34,162 nt of DNA from Saccharofermentans sp. (GTDB taxonomy: Bacteria > Bacillota > Clostridia > Saccharofermentanales > Saccharofermentanaceae): positions 1 to 34,162 of the forward strand of contig JAEFBC010000029.1 in NCBI GenBank assembly GCA_016292155.1. The letters run 5' to 3'. Shown in pieces: positions 657 through 22,989 of this stretch. The notes below the pieces were generated by a model that was given only the letters and a program-made list of their open reading frames with translations, searched no databases and had not been told where the DNA came from. Each line of letters opens with the position of its first letter. Positions within the stretch are counted from its first letter, which is position 1. Both the position numbers and the translations under genes were made by a program.

Positions 657-1022
657 TCAGGCAGGAGACACCACCTTTGTCGCAATAACAGGGATACCGG
701 TGCCTGCGCAGTCTTCGATAAGCACGTCGCCGATAGCTATGGGAGCCTTACAGGAAGCTTTATTTATGGCTTCCATAACCTCGAAAATCCGCCCCTTCGG
801 AACCGGTTCTTTAGTCTTACAGGACACGCGGTCAACTGTGCCGCCAGTAACTTTAATGGTAGTCGTAACAGTCCTTACGGGCGATCTGACCTCGTTTGTT
901 GCATAAACAAAGCCTCTTTTGCAGGTATTTCCTTCGATAACGATAATATCGTCACCTTCCATCGTGACGGTTATACGGCATCCCATAGGACAGTTGATAC
1001 ATGTAAGTTCACGCTTTTCCAT
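657..1022 (-). CDS. DUF1667 family protein (Cys-rich, accompanies GlpA-like oxidoreductases)
   Basis: MEKRELTCINCPMGCRITV...GNTCKRG; conserved CxxCPxGC motif; adjacent to two FAD oxidoreductases. Confidence 0.85.
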   Translation of the reverse strand: MEKRELTCINCPMGCRITVTMEGDDIIVIEGNTCKRGFVYATNEVRSPVRTVTTTIKVTGGTVDRVSCKTKEPVPKGRIFEVMEAINKASCKAPIAIGDVLIEDCAGTGIPVIATKVVSPA

Positions 1023-1023
1023 A

Positions 1024-2277
1024 TCAGTTCTCCGTAATCTCGATTAAGATCTCAGAAGGGGCACCCGACAGTTCCTCTTTCTTTAAGATCACCTGCTCCA
1101 TCTCACCCGGCGTAATGATCTGCTTTCTTCTGTGAAGCTTGGTCTCTCCGTCGAAAAGAACGTTTATATAACTGTCCTTATAGACATTTCCTGATCTGAA
1201 TCTTATGACCAGGTCATCTTCTAATTCATTTAAGCGGACAAAGCTTGGAACGGTATATCTGACGCCGTTTCCGTTCTTTATATTGATTACAGGGCCTTCT
1301 TCAGCTTTATTGGCCTTAACAAATCTTGCTGCACTTCTTCCCGCCCTGCCTGACTCTTCAGAAACATAATCAACAAGGTCATGTACGTGAAGTACATTGC
1401 CGCAGGCAAAGACTCCAGGTATCGAAGTCTCAAAGGACTCATTAACAACAGGTCCGTTTGTAGCTGGATTTATCTTGACACCAGCAGATCTGGATAATTC
1501 ATTCTCAGGTATAAGTCCGCATGACAGGAGCAGCGTATCGCATGCGATCTCCTGCTCTGTACCAGGGACAGGCTTGGACTTCTCGTCAACTTCAGCGATC
1601 ACTACCGAAGTCACCCTCTCCTTGCCTTTGATATCTATAACTGTGTGGGACAGCAGGAGCGGGATGTCAAAGTCATCAAGACACTGTACGATATTACGCT
1701 TAAGGCCTCCTGAATAAGGCATAAGCTCACATACAGCCTTTACCTTTGCGCCTTCTAATGTCATGCGGCGTGCCATTATAAGTCCGATGTCACCGGAACC
1801 TAAGATAACGACTTCCTTGCCGGGCATAAATCCTTCAATATTTACAAGGCGCTGAGCCGTTCCTGCTGTGAAAACTCCGGCAGGTCTTAGTCCCGGTATA
1901 TTAAGAGCACCTCTGGGGCGTTCGCGGCAGCCCATGCAGAGTACAACAGCTCCGCAGTCTACCGTAAATACGCCTTCTTTGCTGTTGACTGCAGTAACAA
2001 CTGAAGATGCGACATCAAGAACCATAGTATCAAGCATATAGCGGATTCCAAGGCCGTCTAACTGCTCTTCGAATCTTGCTGCGTATTCAGGTCCTGTCAG
2101 CTCTTCATTAAAGGTATGAAGGCCAAAACCGTTATGAATGCACTGGTTTAATATACCGCCGAGCTCCCTGTCACGCTCGAGGATAAGGATATTGAGATTA
2201 CTGTCTTCCTTTGCTGCGGCTATAGCAGCTGCAAGGCCTGCAGGACCGCCGCCGACGATTACGATATCAGCCTTCAT
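1024..2277 (-). CDS. FAD/NAD(P)-dependent pyridine nucleotide-disulfide oxidoreductase
   Basis: N-terminal Rossmann GGGPAGLAAAIAA, internal GSGDIGLIMARR, GVFACGN motif; 11-nt overlap with the upstream gene. Confidence 0.88.
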   Translation of the reverse strand: MKADIVIVGGGPAGLAAAIAAAKEDSNLNILILERDRELGGILNQCIHNGFGLHTFNEELTGPEYAARFEEQLDGLGIRYMLDTMVLDVASSVVTAVNSKEGVFTVDCGAVVLCMGCRERPRGALNIPGLRPAGVFTAGTAQRLVNIEGFMPGKEVVILGSGDIGLIMARRMTLEGAKVKAVCELMPYSGGLKRNIVQCLDDFDIPLLLSHTVIDIKGKERVTSVVIAEVDEKSKPVPGTEQEIACDTLLLSCGLIPENELSRSAGVKINPATNGPVVNESFETSIPGVFACGNVLHVHDLVDYVSEESGRAGRSAARFVKANKAEEGPVINIKNGNGVRYTVPSFVRLNELEDDLVIRFRSGNVYKDSYINVLFDGETKLHRRKQIITPGEMEQVILKKEELSGAPSEILIEITEN

Positions 2278-3727
2278 CTTTGGTCCTCCCGGTAACTATC
2301 TTAGAATTTCCGCCGCTCTTGGTAATGGAATCAAGAGCAACACCCAGTTCCCTGCTCAAGATATCCATAACTCTCGGAGAGCAGAAACCGCCCTGGCATC
2401 TGCCCATTCCGGCTCTCGTCCTTCGCTTAACTCCATCAAGAGACTTAGCACCCAAAGGACGCCTTATAGCATCAATGATCTCGCCTTCGGTAATGGTCTC
2501 ACAACGGCAGATGATACGGCCGTATTCTGGATACTCCTTTATAAGTTTTTCACGCTCTTCAGATGGTAATTCAACCGGTTTGACAACATCTTTGCAGATG
2601 CCGTTCCAGGTATCCTTTTGCTTTAAGGCCAACTTTTCAGATACAAGCGAAGCCATATATTCACCGATAGCAGGACATGCCGTAAGTCCTGGTGATTCAA
2701 TACCCACGCAATCAAAGAATCCGGGGCATCCGTCTGCTTCTTCGAGGATAAATTCGCCGCCGTCTTCATGAGCTCTAAGTCCTGAAAAGCCCGTAATCAC
2801 CTGCTTTAGCTGCAATCCCTTAACGTTCTTTACAGCGCCTTCCTGCACTTTTACAAGGCCTTCTGCAGTTACAGGCGCTTCATCCTTGCTCTCTATATCG
2901 ACCGCAGTGGGACCGACTATCGTATTGCCGTGGACTGTGGGGGTTACGAGTATGCCCTTACCCATTTTCGTAGGCTGGGGGAAGATAACATGCTTCACAA
3001 AGCCATCCAGAGAACGGTCGAGCAGCATGTAGTCGCCTCTTCTTGGCGTTATATGGAGCTTCTTATCTGATACGAGATTATGTATATCATCTGCGTGGCA
3101 CCCTGCCGCATTGATTACGGCGCGTGCAATGTAAACTGCATCACCGGTATCCACTTCCCATACACCGCCTGAAGATCTTATGCCGGTTACCTTTGTATCG
3201 AACTTGAATTCAACGCCGTTCTGGGCAGCACATTCAGCCAGAGCGATATTAAGTCTGAAAGGACAGATAACGCCTGCAGTGGGAGCAAATAGCGCGCAGA
3301 CAACGTCATCTGAGATGTTAGGCTCAATCGCCTTTACTTCTCCGGCGGATAAAATCTTCATGCCCGGGACTTCGTTGGTGATGCCCCTTGCGTAGAGATC
3401 ATCAATGCCTTCACGGTTTGCTTCATCAGTACATACGACAAGAGAACCTATCTGCTTAAAAGGGATATCCAGTTCCTGGCAAAGACCCGGCATGAGTTCA
3501 TTGCCGCGGATGTTCATTTTCGCTTTGAGAGTACCGGGTTTTGCATCGTAACCCGCATGAACTATGCCGCTGTTAGCTTTGGAAGTGCCGCAGCAGACAT
3601 CCTCGTCCTTCTCGATAACGAGCACAGAACAGTCAAAGCGCGAGAGCTCTCTTGCTACCGCACATCCTGTTACGCCTGCTCCGATGATGATCACGTCAAA
3701 TGAATTGTCCATAAGCCTTTGCACCAA
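2267..3727 (-). CDS. GlpA/LhgO-like FAD-dependent oxidoreductase with C-terminal BFD-like [2Fe-2S] domain
   Basis: DVIIIGAGVTGCAVARELSRFD (DAO fold) and C-terminal CRCETITEGEI...RCQGGFCSPRV. Start may instead be ATG at 3712. Confidence 0.85.
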   Translation of the reverse strand: MVQRLMDNSFDVIIIGAGVTGCAVARELSRFDCSVLVIEKDEDVCCGTSKANSGIVHAGYDAKPGTLKAKMNIRGNELMPGLCQELDIPFKQIGSLVVCTDEANREGIDDLYARGITNEVPGMKILSAGEVKAIEPNISDDVVCALFAPTAGVICPFRLNIALAECAAQNGVEFKFDTKVTGIRSSGGVWEVDTGDAVYIARAVINAAGCHADDIHNLVSDKKLHITPRRGDYMLLDRSLDGFVKHVIFPQPTKMGKGILVTPTVHGNTIVGPTAVDIESKDEAPVTAEGLVKVQEGAVKNVKGLQLKQVITGFSGLRAHEDGGEFILEEADGCPGFFDCVGIESPGLTACPAIGEYMASLVSEKLALKQKDTWNGICKDVVKPVELPSEEREKLIKEYPEYGRIICRCETITEGEIIDAIRRPLGAKSLDGVKRRTRAGMGRCQGGFCSPRVMDILSRELGVALDSITKSGGNSKIVTGRTKDEG

Positions 3728-3765: not shown

Positions 3766-5193
3766 TTATTTGCAGTCTGCGTCGTGCATTTCTTTCGCAC
3801 GCTCGCTGTCAAAGCCCTCTGTGCTCTCTTTCTGGAACAATATCTTGATGGTCTCGAAAATGATCTGGAAATCAAGTAAAACGCTGTAGTTTGCAATATA
3901 TGTGAGGTCGAGCTTCAGCTTATCAAGAGCTGAAGTATTGTACTTGCCGTAAACCTGGGCATAACCTGTAAGGCCGCCCTTGACCTTCTCTCTGAACTTG
4001 AATTCAGGGATATCCTGAGTGTACTTGATAACGTGCTCGTAACGTTCAGGCCTCGGTCCTACGATGCTCATATCGCCTGCAAAGATATTGAAAAGCTGGG
4101 GAAGCTCGTCCACTCTGCATGCACGGATGATATTGCCGACCTTAGTGATCCTGTCATCCTTCTCACCTGCCGGATGCGGACGTCCGTCCTTCTCGGCATC
4201 TACGATCATGGAACGGAATTTAAGGATCATGAAGTGCTTGCCGTCCTTAGTTACTCGCTCCTGCTTGAAGAATACAGGACCGTGATCTTCGATCTTGATG
4301 GCAAGTGCCGTTATAAGGAAAATTGGACTGAATACGATAAGTGCAAGGCCTGAAAGGATAATGTCCATTGCTCTCTTCGCAAATCTCTGACCGAAGCTCA
4401 TGCCGAAGTTGCGGCTCAAATACAAAGGCGTATCGATAACGTTAATACTGTCTGAGCACTTCAAGATAATATCAGCGATTTTCGGAACAACATAAGTCCT
4501 GACATCATTGTCGAAGCACAGCTTGATGATCTTATTCTCGATCTGTGAAGGAACGTCGTTGATAAGAACGCTGGAGCTCTCATTTATAACTGATTCGAGA
4601 TCGACACCGGGATCGTCGAACTTAACTCTCTTTACGACCTGGTATTTGTGCGGCAGGCATGCGAGCTTGTCCTCGATATTATTGGGGTGATATCCATAGA
4701 TAAGTGTGATCTGCAAAGGCGGGATGATCTTCCTGTAAAGGAAGTTCATGATGATCACGAAAACACCTAAGACAACTGACTGGGCAAGAGCCAGAAGCAT
4801 ATAACGCCATGCAAAATCCAGCATATATCTGAAGTTGTTCTGGATCGTTGCAGATACCAGTACTTCTGCAAGATCCGTTACAAAGAAAGCCATAGCAGCA
4901 CTGACGACCTGCTTAGCAATTCGCTCGACACCGATGCTGAACGCGTGGAAGAATCTGCCGAAGATGATAAACATCATGATGTAGATGATAACTGACATCC
5001 CGATGTTACCAATACCTTTCAGGTATTTGGTACGGTTCTCGACATTATAAATATAATCGAGCCAAACCCAGAGAAAACTTCCAGCAGCAAGCGCTGTAAT
5101 AATGAGCGAACAGAAGCCGCGGAATATATATCTAGAGCCCTGACTATTAGTCTTTGCCCTGTTAACAGAAACGTTGTTACTATCCTTACTCAT
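3766..5193 (-). CDS. Polyprenyl-phosphate sugar phosphotransferase (priming glycosyltransferase)
   Basis: Multiple N-terminal TMs, KRAMDIILSGLALIVFSPIFL, KFRSM, RVDELPQLFNIFAGDMSIVGPRPE. Start chosen at ATG 5193 (GGAG RBS) rather than the track start at 5217. Confidence 0.92.
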   Translation of the reverse strand: MSKDSNNVSVNRAKTNSQGSRYIFRGFCSLIITALAAGSFLWVWLDYIYNVENRTKYLKGIGNIGMSVIIYIMMFIIFGRFFHAFSIGVERIAKQVVSAAMAFFVTDLAEVLVSATIQNNFRYMLDFAWRYMLLALAQSVVLGVFVIIMNFLYRKIIPPLQITLIYGYHPNNIEDKLACLPHKYQVVKRVKFDDPGVDLESVINESSSVLINDVPSQIENKIIKLCFDNDVRTYVVPKIADIILKCSDSINVIDTPLYLSRNFGMSFGQRFAKRAMDIILSGLALIVFSPIFLITALAIKIEDHGPVFFKQERVTKDGKHFMILKFRSMIVDAEKDGRPHPAGEKDDRITKVGNIIRACRVDELPQLFNIFAGDMSIVGPRPERYEHVIKYTQDIPEFKFREKVKGGLTGYAQVYGKYNTSALDKLKLDLTYIANYSVLLDFQIIFETIKILFQKESTEGFDSERAKEMHDADCK

Positions 5194-5228
5194 AGTTCTC
5201 CATATCAATAAACGCAAATAACAACGCT

Positions 5229-5292: not shown

Positions 5293-6588
5293 TTATATCT
5301 CGTCAATAAGAGTGATGATCTCCTTGATGGACATAAGTCTGTCATCGACTTCTTTTGCTCTGTGATACTTAAGGATATCCTCAGCTGTCTTCTGCATTGC
5401 AGGGAAAGCTGATCTTGTAAGCTGGTTGGCATAGATAACGATGTTTACGCCGTGAGCTGCAAGTTCTTCTTCAGTGATCGTATTGAATGAAGAAGGAACA
5501 ACAACGATAGGTGTTGTCTTATCGAATGCTCTGAACTTGTCGCAGAACTCAAGGATCTCAGCAGGATCCTTCTTGCGGCTGTGGATCATGATGCCGTCAG
5601 CACCAGCCTCAACGAATGCCTTTGCTCTTGCAAGAGCATCTTCCATGCCCTGCTCGAGGATAAGGCTCTCGATACGTGCGATGATCATGAAGTCATCAGT
5701 GAGCTGTGCTCTCTTGCCTGCTGCGATCTTGGCGCTCATCTCTTCGATGGTTGCCTGTGTCTGCTTAACTTCAGTACCGAACAGTGAGTTCTTCTTTAAG
5801 CCCTTCTTATCTTCGATGATTACAGCAGAAACACCCATTCTCTCAAGGGAACGTACTGTATAAACGAAGTGCTCTGTAAGTCCGCCTGTATCACCGTCGA
5901 AGATGATAGGCTTTGTCGTAACTTCCATGATATCGTCGATAGTCCTGAATCTGGATGTCATATCAACGAGCTCAATATCAGGCTTGCCCTTTGCTGTGGA
6001 ATCGCAAAGAGATGAGATCCACATAGCATCGAACTGCTCGAGCTTGCCTTCATGCTCTACTACGGTCTTCTCAACGATAAGACCTGTAAGACCGCTGTGA
6101 GCCTCCATTGTCTTAACGATAGGTGTCATTTTAATAAGCTGTCTTAAGCGCTTACGGCGGTATTCAGGCATGGCGAGCTTTTCTCTAAGCTGCATGTCGA
6201 TCTTCTTTACCTTCTCGTTATATGTGTAAGGAACGTCGATGAGTTCACCACCGTATTCCTTAAGGAGAGATTCAACATTTTCGCGGATGGCGCTCTCAGG
6301 ACCTGTCTTCCAGTTATCGCCATGGATTACATAGTCAGGCTTGATCTCAGCGATGACGTCGTTATACATGAAATCTTTCTGTACAACTACCTCATCAACG
6401 CCGTCAAGTTCCTTGTAAAGCTTGATCCTGTCCTCAAGAGAGATCGTGGGGAATCTGTTGTATTTGATGAGAGCTTCATCTGTAAGAGCGCCTACTACAA
6501 CGCGGCCGTGCTCTTTTGCCTTCTCAATGATGTTCAGATGTCCGTCATGGATAACATCAGTACAGAAACAGGTATAAACAGTCTTCAT
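5293..6588 (-). CDS. pepM: Cytidylyltransferase-phosphoenolpyruvate mutase fusion
   Basis: N-terminal HDGH nucleotidyltransferase motif and HGDNWKTGPESAIR; C-terminal PEP mutase with EDKKGLKKNS (diagnostic EDKX5NS) and FDGDTGG. Confidence 0.93.
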   Translation of the reverse strand: MKTVYTCFCTDVIHDGHLNIIEKAKEHGRVVVGALTDEALIKYNRFPTISLEDRIKLYKELDGVDEVVVQKDFMYNDVIAEIKPDYVIHGDNWKTGPESAIRENVESLLKEYGGELIDVPYTYNEKVKKIDMQLREKLAMPEYRRKRLRQLIKMTPIVKTMEAHSGLTGLIVEKTVVEHEGKLEQFDAMWISSLCDSTAKGKPDIELVDMTSRFRTIDDIMEVTTKPIIFDGDTGGLTEHFVYTVRSLERMGVSAVIIEDKKGLKKNSLFGTEVKQTQATIEEMSAKIAAGKRAQLTDDFMIIARIESLILEQGMEDALARAKAFVEAGADGIMIHSRKKDPAEILEFCDKFRAFDKTTPIVVVPSSFNTITEEELAAHGVNIVIYANQLTRSAFPAMQKTAEDILKYHRAKEVDDRLMSIKEIITLIDEI

Positions 6589-6591
6589 GGT

Positions 6592-7731
6592 TCAATTCTC
6601 CTTATAAATTACGGGTATCTGAATGTTGTATGTCTTAAGTGCTTCTTCGAAAACTGCGAAAAAGTCATTTATATCCTTCACATCAATTGCACCGAGAGCG
6701 CAAAGTCTGAAAGTGTTTGTGGAAGAGATCTTGCCGGGATAGATAGTAAATCCTCTCTCGTAGCAATAATCGTGAACCTTCTCAAAGCTCCAGTTGGGAT
6801 CATCGGGATAAATCGCAGTGCTTACAAGGCCTGTGCGGTCTTCAGGCTTGATGACCTGCTTAAAGCCAAGCTTATCAAGGCCTTCATTGATAGCGTTAAA
6901 GACTCTTGTATGGCGTGCCCACTTGCCTTCCTCGCCTTCAGCCCAGTATTCCTTAATGCCCTGGAGTGCTGCATAGATCGTCTGTACCGGAGGTGTAAAG
7001 TGCATCTCGCCGGTCTTCTCAAAGCAGTCGTACTGAAGGAAAAGATTGCAGTAGTAACTTCTCTTGGGATAATCCTTGGACTTCTCGATGATGGCTCTGT
7101 TGCCTACCACAAATGACAGGCCTGTCATTGCCATAAGGCCTTTCTGTGCTGAAGCCATGCAGAAATCGATATTGTCTTCTTCGATATTGATAGGACGCAT
7201 TGCATAAGTGCTTGTAGTATCAACAGTAAAGATAGCACCATACTTATGAGCAAGCGCGCCGATCTCTCTGATAGGATTTAAAATGCCTGTACCGGTCTCG
7301 TTATGAGTCGTGTGAACGAGCTTGATATCAGGGTTATTCTTCAAAGTCTCTTCAACAACTGCGAGATCAGGCTTCTGATCTACAGGGAATTTGAGATTGA
7401 TATGAGGAAGTCCGTAGTATTCGCAGATCTCGGCAGCTCTTGTGCTGTATGCGCCGTTGTTTACGACGAGGACTTTGCCGCCTGCAGGAAGCAATGAATT
7501 GATGCAGACATCGATATTGATCGTGCCTGAACCGCAGAAGAGCACTGAAGTATATTTCTCAAGATCACCGTGAACGATCCTTACGAGATCTTCACGAAGT
7601 CCCTTCATAAGTGAAGCGAATTCTTTTTCTCTGGGGCAGATATCAGGTACGACCTGAGCCATCTTTACCGTGTCAGTCGTTGTGGACGGACCGGGATTTA
7701 AGAGAACATTCCGTTTAACAATCGGATCCAT
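6592..7731 (-). CDS. phnW: 2-aminoethylphosphonate:pyruvate transaminase-like PLP enzyme
   Basis: NVLLNPGPSTTTDTVKMAQVVPDICPREKEF, SAQKG PLP-lysine region; adjacent to pepM; GGGAGG RBS. Confidence 0.87.
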   Translation of the reverse strand: MDPIVKRNVLLNPGPSTTTDTVKMAQVVPDICPREKEFASLMKGLREDLVRIVHGDLEKYTSVLFCGSGTINIDVCINSLLPAGGKVLVVNNGAYSTRAAEICEYYGLPHINLKFPVDQKPDLAVVEETLKNNPDIKLVHTTHNETGTGILNPIREIGALAHKYGAIFTVDTTSTYAMRPINIEEDNIDFCMASAQKGLMAMTGLSFVVGNRAIIEKSKDYPKRSYYCNLFLQYDCFEKTGEMHFTPPVQTIYAALQGIKEYWAEGEEGKWARHTRVFNAINEGLDKLGFKQVIKPEDRTGLVSTAIYPDDPNWSFEKVHDYCYERGFTIYPGKISSTNTFRLCALGAIDVKDINDFFAVFEEALKTYNIQIPVIYKEN

Positions 7732-7869: not shown

Positions 7870-8766
7870 TCAGACGTCGTAACTCTTATCTATGGCCTTC
7901 AATTCCTTGAAAGAATCGATCTCAACGATGTCCTCATCGAAGCATTCCTTGACCGCAACTTTATAGTTGTCCTTGCGGTAAACGAGGGGAACTTGCTCCC
8001 AGTATCTCTCACGTCCGCCGGGTGTCTGGAATACATCATCGATATCCTGTGAGAGCTTGTGACCGTCTGCTTCATTCCAATAAGAGATGCCAACCATCTG
8101 CCAGCAGTCGAGGCCTCCCACCTTCTCTTCCGTGATGATGCCGTCCTTTACGGTAAAGCACCAGTCGTCAGTACGTTCCTTCTTGATGGCAAGGAAATCG
8201 GAAGAATAATGATATTTCCTGATTATCTCCGGATTGCTGCAGACAAGGTCAGCTTCCAGAACATAAGCATTCGAGAGCAGATATCTTGCAACAAGAGCAC
8301 TCGAGATATTATTTGCATCGTTGTAAGAAGGGTTCTCAAGGAACTTGATCATCGGATATTTATATAAGAGCTGGTCGAACTGCTCGGCAAGATATCCTCT
8401 AACGATATAGATCTCTTCGATTCCTGCAGCAAGGCAAGCATCGATCAGAGTATCAATGATCCTCTTTCCGTTGACTCTTACGAGCGGCTTGGGAGTATTT
8501 AGTGTTATCGGAACCATTCTGGAACCAAAGCCGGCAGCAATGAAGACTGCCCTCTTTGCCCTGTAAGGCTCAAGAGCTTCAAGGCCTTCTTTTGTGATCT
8601 TGCATTTCTCTATGTAGCCGAGATCCGTAAGTTCCTTAACGGTCTTGTTTACGGTGCCTAATGAGTAGCCTGTGTGCTTTTCGAGATCGCGCTGGGAAAA
8701 AGACTTCTCCTCAGTAGCCAGTGTCTCTAAGATATCAAATTGCTTTCTTGTAAGTTCTGCAGCCAT
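7870..8766 (-). CDS. Winged helix-turn-helix domain fused to LicC/PntC-like nucleotidyltransferase
   Basis: N-terminal LTRKQFDILETLATEEKSFSQRDLEKHTGYSLGTVNKTVKELTDLGYI (wHTH), then AVFIAAGFGSRMVPITLNTPKPLVRVNG (NTP transferase signature). Confidence 0.88.
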   Translation of the reverse strand: MAAELTRKQFDILETLATEEKSFSQRDLEKHTGYSLGTVNKTVKELTDLGYIEKCKITKEGLEALEPYRAKRAVFIAAGFGSRMVPITLNTPKPLVRVNGKRIIDTLIDACLAAGIEEIYIVRGYLAEQFDQLLYKYPMIKFLENPSYNDANNISSALVARYLLSNAYVLEADLVCSNPEIIRKYHYSSDFLAIKKERTDDWCFTVKDGIITEEKVGGLDCWQMVGISYWNEADGHKLSQDIDDVFQTPGGRERYWEQVPLVYRKDNYKVAVKECFDEDIVEIDSFKELKAIDKSYDV

Positions 8767-11064
8767 TTATGCCTCCACTTCTGAATTGCCAAGTATCTTA
8801 TGGTACAAATAATCGATCGATTCCTTATCGAGTGCTATCGGATGATTCTTAAGCCTGTCCACATTTACAGAGGATGCGAGAAGCATGTACTCCGCTTCAT
8901 TCGCAGAAGGCGTGGACATATTAAGTCTCTTATATAATTCATCAAGATAAGCGCAGACCAGCTTAGGGTCATTAAATCCGAAAGTCTCGGCAATATAATT
9001 CATTACTGAAGCAAGATACTCCGGACCTCTCGGATCAATGCATTTATCCATGTTATCAAGCATCCACGGGAACAGTGACTTAACGCAGAGCATTGCAGCA
9101 TGGCCGTGTGCAAGGCCATAGAGCGATGTGATCTTATAGCACATAGCGTGTCCCGCTGTTGTCTGTGTGATATTTATAGCCTTTCCGGCCTTATATGCGG
9201 CATTGAGCATCTCAAGGTTGGATACCTTGTCATTGGCAAGATAACCGTCGAGATTATCCATTATGAGGTGGATAGCCTCGCTCGCATATGCCTTGCTCTC
9301 ATCGGTGCTGTTAACTGACCAGATGGACTCTATAGAATGGCAGAGCGCGTCGAACATCGTGCATTTTCTCTGATAAAGAGGCAGAGTCTTAAGAAGACTG
9401 CTGTCCATAAGAACAGTCTTAGGGATTATGCTTTCATGGTTAATCGACTGCTTCGCTCCGTTATAGTAGATAACCGCAAATCTGGTAGCTTCTGATCCTG
9501 TTCCTGCTGTAGTCGGAACTGCAAGGAACGGAATATCATTGGCAACGATATCCTGCTTAAGGAAATTCTTCTCAGGATCCATGTTGGAGAAGAGCTTAAT
9601 GCACTTAGCAACATCCATTGCAGATCCGCCGCCGATCGCGATTATCGCCTGGCATTTCTCCCTGTTGAATACGTTGACTCCTTCTACGACTGATTCATAT
9701 AAAGGATTAGGCGAGAAATCGCTGAAAGGTACTATCTTAACACCAAGTCTGGCCTCGACATTATCAAGATATCTCTTGATGGGCATTACATTAATAGAAG
9801 GGCCGCAGACGAGCAAAATAGCGTTCGCGCCTGAAGATCTGATCCAGTCATCAACCTTGGCGTAGTTATTCTCAGCCGTAATTATTCCTTCAACGGACTT
9901 CCAGATATCGCGTTCGATCTCGCTGTTATCGGGATCTGTGATCTCACCGCTGAAAGTATTCTCGATGGATGCATATTTCGCATCGGCAGCGTACGGGAAT
10001 TCAACGAGTTTGCCGCCATATTCAGCAAGAAGGCTAATTACCTCTTCCCTTATGGGCTTCTGGTAACCAGTCTTCCAGTTATCGCCGTGAACAACGATAT
10101 CAGGCTTATATTTCCTGATATTGTCCGCATAGGACAATGTATCCTGGTCTACTACCCTGTATACGCCTGCAATGCTTGCCACAAGAGCTTTACGCTCGGA
10201 TCTAGGAACGATCGGAGCACGCTTGTAGCTTGCGACTACCTCATCTGAGAGAACTCCAACAGTAAGTTTTCCAAGCTTTGCGGCTTTCTTGATGATGGCT
10301 ATATGTCCGCCGTGGATAACGTTGGTCGAGAAAGACATGTAAACAGATCTGTTCTCAACTTCCTTAAGCCTTGCAGATACAACTGCGAGGTCCTCTGGGT
10401 TGTCAATCTCTGAGCAGAGCCTGTCCTGAACATCAAATGCCTTGATATTGCATGCGCCGCCCAGCTCATTCAGAGCATTCTCGGCATAGCACTTGCGGTT
10501 GTCGCTCTCACAGAACTCAACGATCTTATCGAGCCAGAGCTTCCAGTCCTCGCGGTTAAGCTTATACAGAGCCTGTGCTTCCATCGCATCGTCGAAGAAA
10601 TCAATGCCGACCTTCTGAACGAAGCCGTCCTTGATAACAGCCTTAAAGTCCTTCTCAGGAAGCGGGATCGTGGAAGATACCTTCATGCAGCTCGTCGGGC
10701 AGTTCAATATGTCTTCTAGTACTGAGGCTTCAAAAACCAGGTCTCCATGCATCAGTACGATATCGTCATCCAAGTATTCTCTCGCGCAGTAAATGCTGTA
10801 AATATAATTGGTTTCAGCGTAAAGCGGGTTATTTACAAAGGTGAAATTCATCGGAAGGCCCAACGAATGGCAGTAATCCACCAGGATCTTATCGAAATAG
10901 CCCGTCGTCATGACGACTTCGGTAACTCCGTTGCTTTCAAGAAGCTTTAATTGTCTTGAAAGGATAGTATCTGTTGCAGATACTTCCGTCATGCACTTGG
11001 GATGCTCGGATGTAAGAACTCCCATCCTGTGTCCCAATCCGGAATTCAAGATCAAAGCTTTCAC
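8767..11064 (-). CDS. Three-domain fusion: NTP transferase + cytidylyltransferase + iron-containing alcohol dehydrogenase (phosphonoacetaldehyde reductase-like)
   Basis: KALILNSGLGHRMGVLTSEHPKCM; FSTNVIHGGH...IVVHGDNWKTGYQKPIREE; IIAIGGGSAMDVAK...PTTAGTGSEATRFAV...GLAHGHAAML. GTG start at 11064 follows a GGAGGG RBS; the track start at 11079 is a TTG within the RBS. Confidence 0.88.
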   Translation of the reverse strand: MKALILNSGLGHRMGVLTSEHPKCMTEVSATDTILSRQLKLLESNGVTEVVMTTGYFDKILVDYCHSLGLPMNFTFVNNPLYAETNYIYSIYCAREYLDDDIVLMHGDLVFEASVLEDILNCPTSCMKVSSTIPLPEKDFKAVIKDGFVQKVGIDFFDDAMEAQALYKLNREDWKLWLDKIVEFCESDNRKCYAENALNELGGACNIKAFDVQDRLCSEIDNPEDLAVVSARLKEVENRSVYMSFSTNVIHGGHIAIIKKAAKLGKLTVGVLSDEVVASYKRAPIVPRSERKALVASIAGVYRVVDQDTLSYADNIRKYKPDIVVHGDNWKTGYQKPIREEVISLLAEYGGKLVEFPYAADAKYASIENTFSGEITDPDNSEIERDIWKSVEGIITAENNYAKVDDWIRSSGANAILLVCGPSINVMPIKRYLDNVEARLGVKIVPFSDFSPNPLYESVVEGVNVFNREKCQAIIAIGGGSAMDVAKCIKLFSNMDPEKNFLKQDIVANDIPFLAVPTTAGTGSEATRFAVIYYNGAKQSINHESIIPKTVLMDSSLLKTLPLYQRKCTMFDALCHSIESIWSVNSTDESKAYASEAIHLIMDNLDGYLANDKVSNLEMLNAAYKAGKAINITQTTAGHAMCYKITSLYGLAHGHAAMLCVKSLFPWMLDNMDKCIDPRGPEYLASVMNYIAETFGFNDPKLVCAYLDELYKRLNMSTPSANEAEYMLLASSVNVDRLKNHPIALDKESIDYLYHKILGNSEVEA

Positions 11065-11093
11065 ACTATTTCCCTCCAAAATCTATCAACAAA

Positions 11094-11156: not shown

Positions 11157-12827
11157 TTATACAATAAAGCCTTCCAGTTCAGCCATGATCTCAGATTCAA
11201 CAGCCATAGCCTTTTCGCGGTTCTCAGAAACAACGCTTACATAAGTCTTGAGCTTAGGTTCAGTACCGGAAGGCCTTACAACAACGGAGATATCCTTAGT
11301 GTAGAACTTAAGAACATCAGACTTGGGAAGGCCGTTTAAGCCCTTGCTGTAATCCTCAGTCTTTATAACCTCCTGGCCTGCGATCGTCTCAAGACCCTTA
11401 TGGAACGTATCCATGATCTCGCCCATCTTCTCCATTCCGGCAGATCCGGGGAATTCAAATGAATGCAGAGTATTAAGGCAGTAGCCGTACTTCTCATAGA
11501 GTTCATTGAGCTTATCGATAAGGCTGATGCCTCTTGTCTTATAGAATGCGAACATCTCAGCGATGATGAATGCAGCATTTACGGCATCCTTATCTCTTAC
11601 ATATGAACCCGTGAGATAACCGTAGGACTCCTCAAAGCCGCAGATATAATCAGATTCCCTGCCCTTTGCTTCCATCCTTCCGATGACTTCACCGATGAAC
11701 TTAAAGCCTGTAAGAACATTAATGGTCTCGACGCCGTAGTTGCTTGCGATCTTCTCAGCAAGATCCATCGTAACGATAGTCTTGATGAATACAGGGTGCT
11801 CGGGCATCTTGTTATGCTTAATCCTCTGGCTACAGATATAGTCCAGAAGCAGTATTCCGACTTCATTTCCTGACAAGAGCTGATACTCACCGCTCTCAGT
11901 CTTTACGGCTATACCGCATCTGTCAGCGTCAGGGTCGGTTGCGAAAAGAAGATCCGCACCTGTCTTCTCGCAATACTGAAGTCCAAGCTCCATCGCTTCC
12001 CTGATCTCAGGATTCGGATAAGGGCATGTCGGGAAGTTGCCGTCAGGATTCCTCTGTTCTTCAACCACGATGATGTTAGTAAATCCGGACTCCTCCAAAG
12101 CCCTTGTTACAGGCTTTAATCCTGTGCCGTTCAAAGGAGAATAAACGATAGTTACATTCTTATCGATCTCATCGCCGAAGAGAACAGATTGGCTCTTAAC
12201 AGCCTCAATAAAGCCGTCCATTACCGAATCAGGGATATACTCGATCCTGCCCTCTTCTACTGCCCTATCAAAATCCATGGACTTAACGTCAGCAAAGATA
12301 TCGAGCTTTTCGATCTCAGAAAGGATCGTTGCAGCAGCTTCAGTTGTGATCTGGCATCCGTCAGCGCCATAGACCTTATAGCCGTTGTATTTTGCGGGGT
12401 TATGCGATGCAGTGATCATGATGCCCTGTGAAGCCTTAAGATCTCTAATAGCAAAGCTTACGGTCGGAACAGGATTCAATGTAGGCCAGATCCATACCTT
12501 AAGGCCGTTTGCAGCAAATACAGATGCGGCAACTTTTGCAAACAGGTCAGACTTGATGCGGCTGTCATAGCCGACTACAACGCTCGGCTGGCCGTCAACT
12601 GTCTTAAGAAGATAATCGGAAAGGCCCTGGCTAGCCTTAGCAACAACATAGATATTCATGCGGTTGGTGCCGGCGCCGATCGTGCCTCTCAAGCCGCCTG
12701 TACCGAATGCTAGGTTCCTGTAGAATGCATCCTCCATGGCAACATCATCCATGCCCTGAAGTTCTTTATTGATCTCGCTGTCTTTTGCAAGCTCTAACCA
12801 GCGCTCATATTCTGCTTTGTAATCCAT
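11157..12827 (-). CDS. Phospho-sugar mutase (phosphoglucomutase/phosphomannomutase)
   Basis: GTGGLRGTIGAGTNRMN, MITASHNPAKYNGYKVYG, ATDPDADRCGIAV, GFEESYGY, VRPSGTEPKLK. Confidence 0.95.
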   Translation of the reverse strand: MDYKAEYERWLELAKDSEINKELQGMDDVAMEDAFYRNLAFGTGGLRGTIGAGTNRMNIYVVAKASQGLSDYLLKTVDGQPSVVVGYDSRIKSDLFAKVAASVFAANGLKVWIWPTLNPVPTVSFAIRDLKASQGIMITASHNPAKYNGYKVYGADGCQITTEAAATILSEIEKLDIFADVKSMDFDRAVEEGRIEYIPDSVMDGFIEAVKSQSVLFGDEIDKNVTIVYSPLNGTGLKPVTRALEESGFTNIIVVEEQRNPDGNFPTCPYPNPEIREAMELGLQYCEKTGADLLFATDPDADRCGIAVKTESGEYQLLSGNEVGILLLDYICSQRIKHNKMPEHPVFIKTIVTMDLAEKIASNYGVETINVLTGFKFIGEVIGRMEAKGRESDYICGFEESYGYLTGSYVRDKDAVNAAFIIAEMFAFYKTRGISLIDKLNELYEKYGYCLNTLHSFEFPGSAGMEKMGEIMDTFHKGLETIAGQEVIKTEDYSKGLNGLPKSDVLKFYTKDISVVVRPSGTEPKLKTYVSVVSENREKAMAVESEIMAELEGFIV

Positions 12828-21990: not shown

Positions 21991-22989
21991 TTAAACCTCA
22001 AACGAACTCTTTTCAGGCAGGATCTTTTCAAAAGCTGCTGCAATTTTTTTCTGGGTATTCCCGAAATCAGTTCCCCTGTATTCATCATTTACGCAGGTAA
22101 CTTTCTTCTTCTGCGAGCTGATGATATTACATATGCCGGATACGTCATCGCTATTTATCGCCGTATATCCGAAGCACTGCTGGGACTTAACGTTAAAGCG
22201 CCCTTCCAAAAGTCTCCAGTATCTGACAAGCCATACAGTGACATCTTCCCTGGATCTGAACTTGTGCATCTGAGTAGCAGACAAGAGTTCAGGCACTTCT
22301 TTCCAGACCACCTCAAAATCATGCTTAGTAAATGCAAGCGGCACGTGATAATCCCTAATCGCAGAGAAAGAAGTCCACGGCTTTAACAGTTTTAAAGTAC
22401 GGTATAAAGACTTGGGATCTTTTAAGCTATACCATTTCGACTTATTCTCAGAAAGCACGCGCCTCATATCAAAATGCTTATTGATAACAAGCATATTGTT
22501 CATTCTCATGTATTCAAAATCATTACCCGGAGTAAGTATATCCAAAGCCGCAAAATCACATGGAATACCATTTTTAAAGAAATCTTCGGGCTTCATCGGA
22601 GCAGTCGGGAAAAAGTCATCATTAAATACAACAAAATGATCACTTAATCCGGGTATCTTATGAAGAGACATCTCAATTGCACAGGAATTAAAAGTCGGAA
22701 GAGCCTCTTGCGGCATATAATCCTTGTGATCGATCAGAACAAGCTTCTCGCAATTCGCATTAAGCCATTCAGGCTTCTGTCCGCAAGTAACGAAATAGAC
22801 CTTATTTACCCAGGGAGCGAACTTTTCGACTCCTCTGAACCAGTAACGCATAAGATCCCAGTCACGGTATCTGTGCAAACCGGCATTATCCTCGGATATC
22901 TTGATCCCAAGATATTCATTTCTGGTTTTCTGCCATTCCGGATCGTTACCATCGACCCATTCAACTATGAAATCAATCTTGTCGCTCAT
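21991..22989 (-). CDS. Stealth-family sugar-phosphate phosphotransferase
   Basis: Stealth CR1 IDFIVEWVDGNDPEWQ; CR2 RYRDWDLMRYWFRGVEKFAPWVNKVYFVTCGQKPEWL; VVFNDDFFPTAPMKPEDFF. Confidence 0.9.
   Translation of the reverse strand: MSDKIDFIVEWVDGNDPEWQKTRNEYLGIKISEDNAGLHRYRDWDLMRYWFRGVEKFAPWVNKVYFVTCGQKPEWLNANCEKLVLIDHKDYMPQEALPTFNSCAIEMSLHKIPGLSDHFVVFNDDFFPTAPMKPEDFFKNGIPCDFAALDILTPGNDFEYMRMNNMLVINKHFDMRRVLSENKSKWYSLKDPKSLYRTLKLLKPWTSFSAIRDYHVPLAFTKHDFEVVWKEVPELLSATQMHKFRSREDVTVWLVRYWRLLEGRFNVKSQQCFGYTAINSDDVSGICNIISSQKKKVTCVNDEYRGTDFGNTQKKIAAAFEKILPEKSSFEV

Follow-up and report, generated by a model that had tools for sequence, protein, structure and literature searches.

A predicted 2-hydroxyethylphosphonate-branch enzyme joining two nucleotidyltransferase domains to an iron alcohol dehydrogenase in a phosphonate surface-tailoring cluster of rumen Clostridia

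More than two thirds of bacterial phosphonate gene clusters encode nucleotidyltransferases, and some carry more than one, the reason for which was not explained in the study that reported it (PMC6697681). The same study described a triple fusion, represented by 42 proteins, in which NTP_transf_3 and CTP_transf_like domains precede a PEP mutase (Ppm, here PepM) domain (Rice et al. 2019, PMC6697681). The CMP-HEP (HEP, 2-hydroxyethylphosphonate) of fosfomycin biosynthesis is the product of the CyTase domain of Fom1 (PDB 5X3D; PMC6697681), a CyTase-PepM protein that has neither an NTP_transf_3 (NTP) domain nor an iron alcohol dehydrogenase (Fe-ADH). In the 2-aminoethylphosphonate (AEP) branch, Tde1415 joins a single nucleotidyltransferase domain, PntC, to a PLP-dependent AEP transaminase (PDB 6PD1; PMC6697681), so that an enzyme consuming phosphonoacetaldehyde is linked to one activating its product. 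Among iron alcohol dehydrogenases, the stand-alone BkTauF serves taurine metabolism by reducing sulfoacetaldehyde, the sulfonate counterpart of phosphonoacetaldehyde (PDB 6JKO; PMC6616044).

Here, we analysed a stretch of 34,162 nucleotides from a rumen Saccharofermentans sp. (contig JAEFBC010000029.1; hereafter the window), in which a single gene encodes both of these nucleotidyltransferase types followed by an Fe-ADH. The gene and its parts are as follows (residues of the 765-aa protein are counted from the GTG start codon):

8767..11064, minus strand: fusion gene for NTP transferase, Fom1-like cytidylyltransferase and iron alcohol dehydrogenase, 765 aa
10360..11064, minus strand: NTP_transf_3 domain, LicC/PntC-like, residues 1-235
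9985..10353, minus strand: CTP_transf_like (CTP) domain, Fom1 CyTase-like, residues 238-360, with motifs HGGH and VHGDNWKTG
9886..9984, minus strand: linker, residues 361-393
8770..9885, minus strand: iron alcohol dehydrogenase domain, residues 394-765, with metal ligands D572, H576, H639 and H653

The open reading frame spans 8767-11079 from a TTG codon; the GTG at 11064, preceded by the ribosome-binding site GGAGGG, is the likelier start, coincides exactly with the end coordinate given in the initial annotation, and leads to a stop at 8767. That annotation had described one three-domain frame and gave no strand; a reading on the plus strand is ruled out by many stops, and Pfam confirms the three domains on the minus strand, with NTP_transf_3 at 8-126 (2.5e-7), CTP_transf_like at 253-346 (5e-12), Fe-ADH at 399-559 (4e-36) and ADH_Fe_C at 574-759 (2e-17), in the P0001 numbering, which adds 5 residues to the N terminus of the GTG form. 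The same Pfam search found no PEP mutase domain (PF13714) in the protein. All three previously noted motifs, LNSGLGHRM, HGGH and PTTAGTGSEAT, are present, and the catalytic residues of all three domains are intact.

The fusion gene lies within a polysaccharide cluster, with genes for phosphonate metabolism downstream of it on the same strand:

11157..12827, minus strand: phosphoglucomutase/phosphomannomutase family protein, just upstream of the fusion gene and not obviously a member of the phosphonate branch
7870..8766, minus strand: MarR-type HTH and LicC-type transferase, probable AEP cytidylyltransferase (PntC), with Glu at both AEP-contact positions
6592..7731, minus strand: 2-aminoethylphosphonate aminotransferase PhnW (TIGR03301, 455 bits, cut-off 361)
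5293..6588, minus strand: cytidylyltransferase-like domain and PEP mutase (CTP-PepM; TIGR02320, 409 bits, cut-off 320)
3766..5217, minus strand: polyprenyl glycosylphosphotransferase of the polysaccharide cluster (TIGR03025, above cut-off)

The contig ends at position 1, inside the cluster. Positioned on the syntenic locus of G033 (L140; 90-91% identity), the window and contig C215 of the same genome (L141, G000) show an overlap of about 136 bases, so the cluster continues into the C215 genes, which encode a GT2 protein, a LicD, an IspD-type cytidylyltransferase, an epimerase and a second LicD; with these included, it contains five cytidylyltransferase-like domains. With PepM, PhnW, a LicC-type protein and polysaccharide genes in the window and LicD just beyond, the locus has the composition of a phosphonyl tailoring (pnt) cluster. 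No phosphonopyruvate decarboxylase (Ppd) was found in the window, nor any above the cut-off in the genome itself, whose assembly is 77% complete and is the sole exception among the 11 fused genomes searched, the other 10 of which have Ppd. Several further genes stand out in the cluster. An FAD oxidoreductase (DAO with a BFD-type 2Fe-2S domain), a Pyr_redox_2 protein and a DUF1667 protein (657-3727, minus strand) are placed between the CTP-PepM and LicD genes, likewise in G033 and G005. The MarR-type winged helix N-terminal to the LicC-type cytidylyltransferase at 7870-8766 (minus strand) is part of one protein, conserved in 13 relatives, which is possibly a regulator fused to an enzyme. A Stealth-family (CR1/CR2) protein at 21991-22989 (minus strand) is possibly a phosphodiester-forming glycan transferase.

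Comparison with related loci, mostly from metagenome assemblies, places the window protein next to the triple fusion. The two share the same N-terminal nucleotidyltransferases in the same order and the same phosphonate setting, and the N-terminal 400 residues are about 60-77% identical, whereas the C-terminal domain is PEP mutase in one and Fe-ADH in the other. We found 69 NTP-CTP-PepM frames, in which the usual next genes encode a separate Fe-ADH and then Ppd. To judge from the sequence, the window protein is a derivative of this known enzyme, a variant in which PepM has been lost and Fe-ADH joined in its place. The NTP-CTP-Fe-ADH architecture is found in 18 distinct proteins, which fall into five groups:

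Fused group 1: the window, L021-L027 and G005
Fused group 2: L028-L030
Fused group 3: L031-L032
Fused group 4: L033
Fused group 5: L034, L035 and L099

PepM is carried on a separate CTP-PepM gene in all 15 fused genomes checked (11 by search, four by adjacency), and the searched genomes of the fused and PepM-fused types alike have one PepM each. PhnW above the cut-off occurs in 12 of 14 fused genomes, compared with none of 11 PepM-fused genomes. This is an association only, and the statement that every fused genome has an AEP branch was rejected: fused genomes G070 and G071 are without PhnW, so that sharing with the AEP branch is not universal, and a PhnW-like gene adjoins the PepM-fused loci L042 and L063. 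Apparent cases of a four-domain protein (G029) and of an NTP-Fe-ADH protein (G008) were also discarded: both long frames run across stop codons, and each locus holds separate genes. In G008, G011, G015 and G022, which are of the same genus, and similarly in L018 and L019, a stand-alone NTP gene adjoins Fe-ADH with no Fom1-like CTP domain; the arrangement in L018, L019, G011, G015 and G022 is a further stage of domain loss. Within the literature consulted, which did not extend to the 2022 phosphonate branch-point survey of Li and Horsman, the source likeliest to mention such a fusion, no description of the NTP-CTP-Fe-ADH order was found.

Among solved structures, the CTP domain is closest to the Fom1 CyTase, at 136 bits (next structure, 41), a relationship well above that to other PF01467 enzymes; it shares with Fom1 the motifs HGGH and VHGD-W and is intact in 18 of 18 fused proteins. 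Mean identity to the Fom1 CyTase is about 52% for the CTP domain of the fusion and 39% for the PepM-borne CTP domain. In half of the loci examined (12/24), the gene just upstream of the NTP domain encodes a LicD or a CDP-glycerol-type (TagF-like, PF04464) transferase, a neighbour that fits a CMP-activated donor. Together with the PepM/Ppd/PhnW context, these features support the prediction that the domain is a HEP cytidylyltransferase.

The Fe-ADH domain has the fold and the four ligands of a metal-dependent alcohol dehydrogenase, D572, H576, H639 and H653, kept in 18 of 18 fused proteins, as well as a GGGSAMD motif. An apparent loss of the fourth ligand, with Trp667 in its place, was rejected, the fourth ligand being H653. 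BkTauF is both the best phmmer match and the best fold match of an AlphaFold model (pLDDT 74.6, pTM 0.52, 14 sequences), which was used for the fold match of this domain only, its domain arrangement not being trusted. The metal site is conserved between the two enzymes. So is T257 of BkTauF: its replacement by alanine nearly abolishes activity (PMC6616044), and the equivalent residue is Thr in 76 of 76 related Fe-ADHs. Identity is nevertheless only about 24%, and F252 and F265 of BkTauF correspond to Ile and Tyr in the fusion, the latter being Tyr in all 76. The second metal ligand is Gln in 17 of the separate Fe-ADHs of 58 unfused loci, as Q196 in BkTauF, and His in all 18 fused proteins. The domain falls below the cut-off of every NCBIfam equivalog and is not PsrA, the phosphonate-cluster Fe-ADH (TIGR03405, 148 bits against a cut-off of 423.7). 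Its genomic context with PepM, Ppd and PhnW and its relation to BkTauF support its prediction as a phosphonoacetaldehyde reductase.

The NTP domain shares its fold and catalytic motif with LicC, a CTP:phosphocholine cytidylyltransferase (PDB 1JYK), although the match is weak (43-45 bits) and the substrate-binding half has diverged. Its R...PK motif and both metal-binding Asp are present in all 97 domains, the alignment of its profile with Tde-PntC extends over the full domain, and the PntC motif G-x-G-(T/S)-R reads GLGHR in the window, with Ser or Thr in many relatives. Of the two Glu residues that contact the amine of AEP in Tde-PntC, Glu196 is kept, but the position of Glu104 is occupied by His in all 97 domains (His106 in the window protein); in the HTH-LicC proteins encoded nearby, both positions are Glu in 13 of 13 cases. 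Because Ari-PntC shows that other solutions exist among PntC enzymes, this replacement lowers the probability of AEP as a substrate and does not exclude it; given that no PhnW above the cut-off was found in the 11 PepM-fused genomes, AEP is also an unlikely substrate there. AEP is disfavoured for the NTP domain.

We propose that the fusion protein probably makes HEP and activates it with CTP for the decoration of surface sugars. PepM (5293-6588) would form phosphonopyruvate, which Ppd, encoded elsewhere, would convert to phosphonoacetaldehyde, the branch point. On one side, PhnW would produce AEP, to be activated to CMP-AEP by the LicC-type protein at 7870-8766; on the other, the Fe-ADH domain of the fusion would reduce phosphonoacetaldehyde to HEP and its Fom1-type CTP domain would couple HEP to CMP, yielding CMP-HEP. 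LicD-type transferases could then place both CMP-activated phosphonates on polysaccharide, and the NTP domain would act as an intact nucleotidyltransferase of the HEP branch. The initial annotation had suggested this chemistry of reduction and CTP-dependent activation, and it holds as an inference for the Fe-ADH and CTP domains. The sequences themselves establish the architecture, the orthologues and their recurrence, the catalytic residues and the genome context; the substrates, CMP-HEP as the product and transfer by LicD are predictions. Taken as a whole, a HEP-branch enzyme of a phosphonate surface-tailoring cluster that originated about five times through PepM loss is the best explanation of the data, and we hold it with reasonable though not high confidence. 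A more specific version, in which the fusion channels phosphonoacetaldehyde straight to activated HEP and both nucleotidyltransferases are needed, in series or for two partners, is tentative.

Other assignments of substrate were weighed against this proposal. The reductase might use a different aldehyde, for example one derived from a sugar or glycerol, and the fusion activate a different phosphorylated alcohol, with the phosphonate genes as mere neighbours. The substrates of Fe-ADH enzymes do vary widely, the domain passes no equivalog cut-off, and PF01467 and PF12804 also include enzymes for phosphoglycerol, phosphocholine and inositol phosphate. We nevertheless consider this improbable, as the 69 related frames join this NTP-CTP unit to PepM, usually with Fe-ADH and Ppd following, the CTP domain scores far higher against Fom1 than against any other structure, and the closest Fe-ADH structure is that of an enzyme acting on the sulfonate analogue. 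Somewhat less improbable, if still unlikely, is a division of labour in which the NTP domain activates HEP, by analogy with PntC and AEP, leaving the CTP domain with a different substrate or an auxiliary role. The full-length alignment with Tde-PntC, the His near the position of the AEP amine and the four same-genus genomes that keep NTP beside Fe-ADH without a Fom1-like CTP domain would all agree with it. Against it, the close relationship to a characterised HEP cytidylyltransferase is that of the CTP domain, which is intact in every fused protein, and in the cases seen the relatives lacking the Fom1-like domain still have a CTP domain on PepM.

The origin of the fusion was also open to other readings. 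The initial annotation had named a sequencing artefact that splits into separate genes in relatives as a refuting outcome, and in most relatives the reductase does have its own gene, with NTP-CTP joined to PepM. An assembly or frameshift artefact joining neighbouring genes is nonetheless extremely improbable and is contradicted by the orthologues: the architecture recurs in 18 distinct proteins from independently assembled genomes, so the fusion is neither chance nor assembly error, and it is genuine and recurrent. The reading frame is conserved through the junction, the linkers are conserved within each clade, and one orthologue comes from Ruminococcaceae bacterium YRB3002, whose record is not flagged as a MAG. 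The fusion appears to have arisen about five times independently. The Fe-ADH domain tree and the NTP-CTP tree each require five changes, in the identical five groups, and in a concatenated tree of 72 loci well-supported branches force five origins. Constraining all fused proteins to a single clade lowers the best attainable likelihood by 102 log units (AU p = 0.0013). These trees come from fast searches whose branch support is likelihood-based only, and the AU test was applied to a concatenated tree of that kind. Surface polysaccharide clusters frequently move horizontally, and the best-supported branches of the NTP-CTP tree alone do not force several origins, both of which would suit one ancestral fusion that spread by transfer, with the five origins a tree artefact. 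Transfer of one fused gene would, however, put all fused proteins into one clade, which the concatenated tree and AU test reject; both protein parts give the same five clades, and linker sequence and length differ between them. We regard a single origin as very unlikely.

With Fe-ADH encoded by the next gene, a fusion needs no more than the in-frame removal of PepM and of the stop between them. The loss would have occurred in the widespread NTP-CTP-PepM / Fe-ADH / Ppd operon, in lineages having PepM on the CTP-PepM gene. In L039, NTP-CTP and Fe-ADH are separate genes and PepM is gone from the NTP-CTP unit, as expected of an intermediate. The linker KYQDIDRKMRSDLPSPE of L034/L035/L099 is similar to KYKDIDSRTRADLAMPE, the sequence at the CTP-PepM junction of L077, so that the start of PepM seems to persist there as a scar; in the window clade the trace is weak, and the linker at residues 361-393 is possibly a remnant of an excised PepM start.

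The repeated loss of PepM, with both nucleotidyltransferases kept and joined to the reductase, places the pair in the HEP branch and not with PepM catalysis; the compact fused proteins also make its role addressable domain by domain. The logic parallels that of Tde1415 most closely, with Fe-ADH and HEP in place of the transaminase and AEP. If the channelling reading were true, the five-fold origin would reflect selection for coupling reductase to activation once PepM was supplied by another gene. On this proposal, certain rumen Clostridia should carry HEP as well as AEP on their surface polysaccharides, with a single PepM and a single Ppd supplying both. In several clades the gene immediately upstream of the fusion (L030 6698-7975, L099 6675-7835, L024 5536-7899) encodes a protein of 386-787 aa without a Pfam match, and BspA-type leucine-rich repeat proteins adjoin the phosphonate clusters at L141 4844-7009 and L113 9147-10349.
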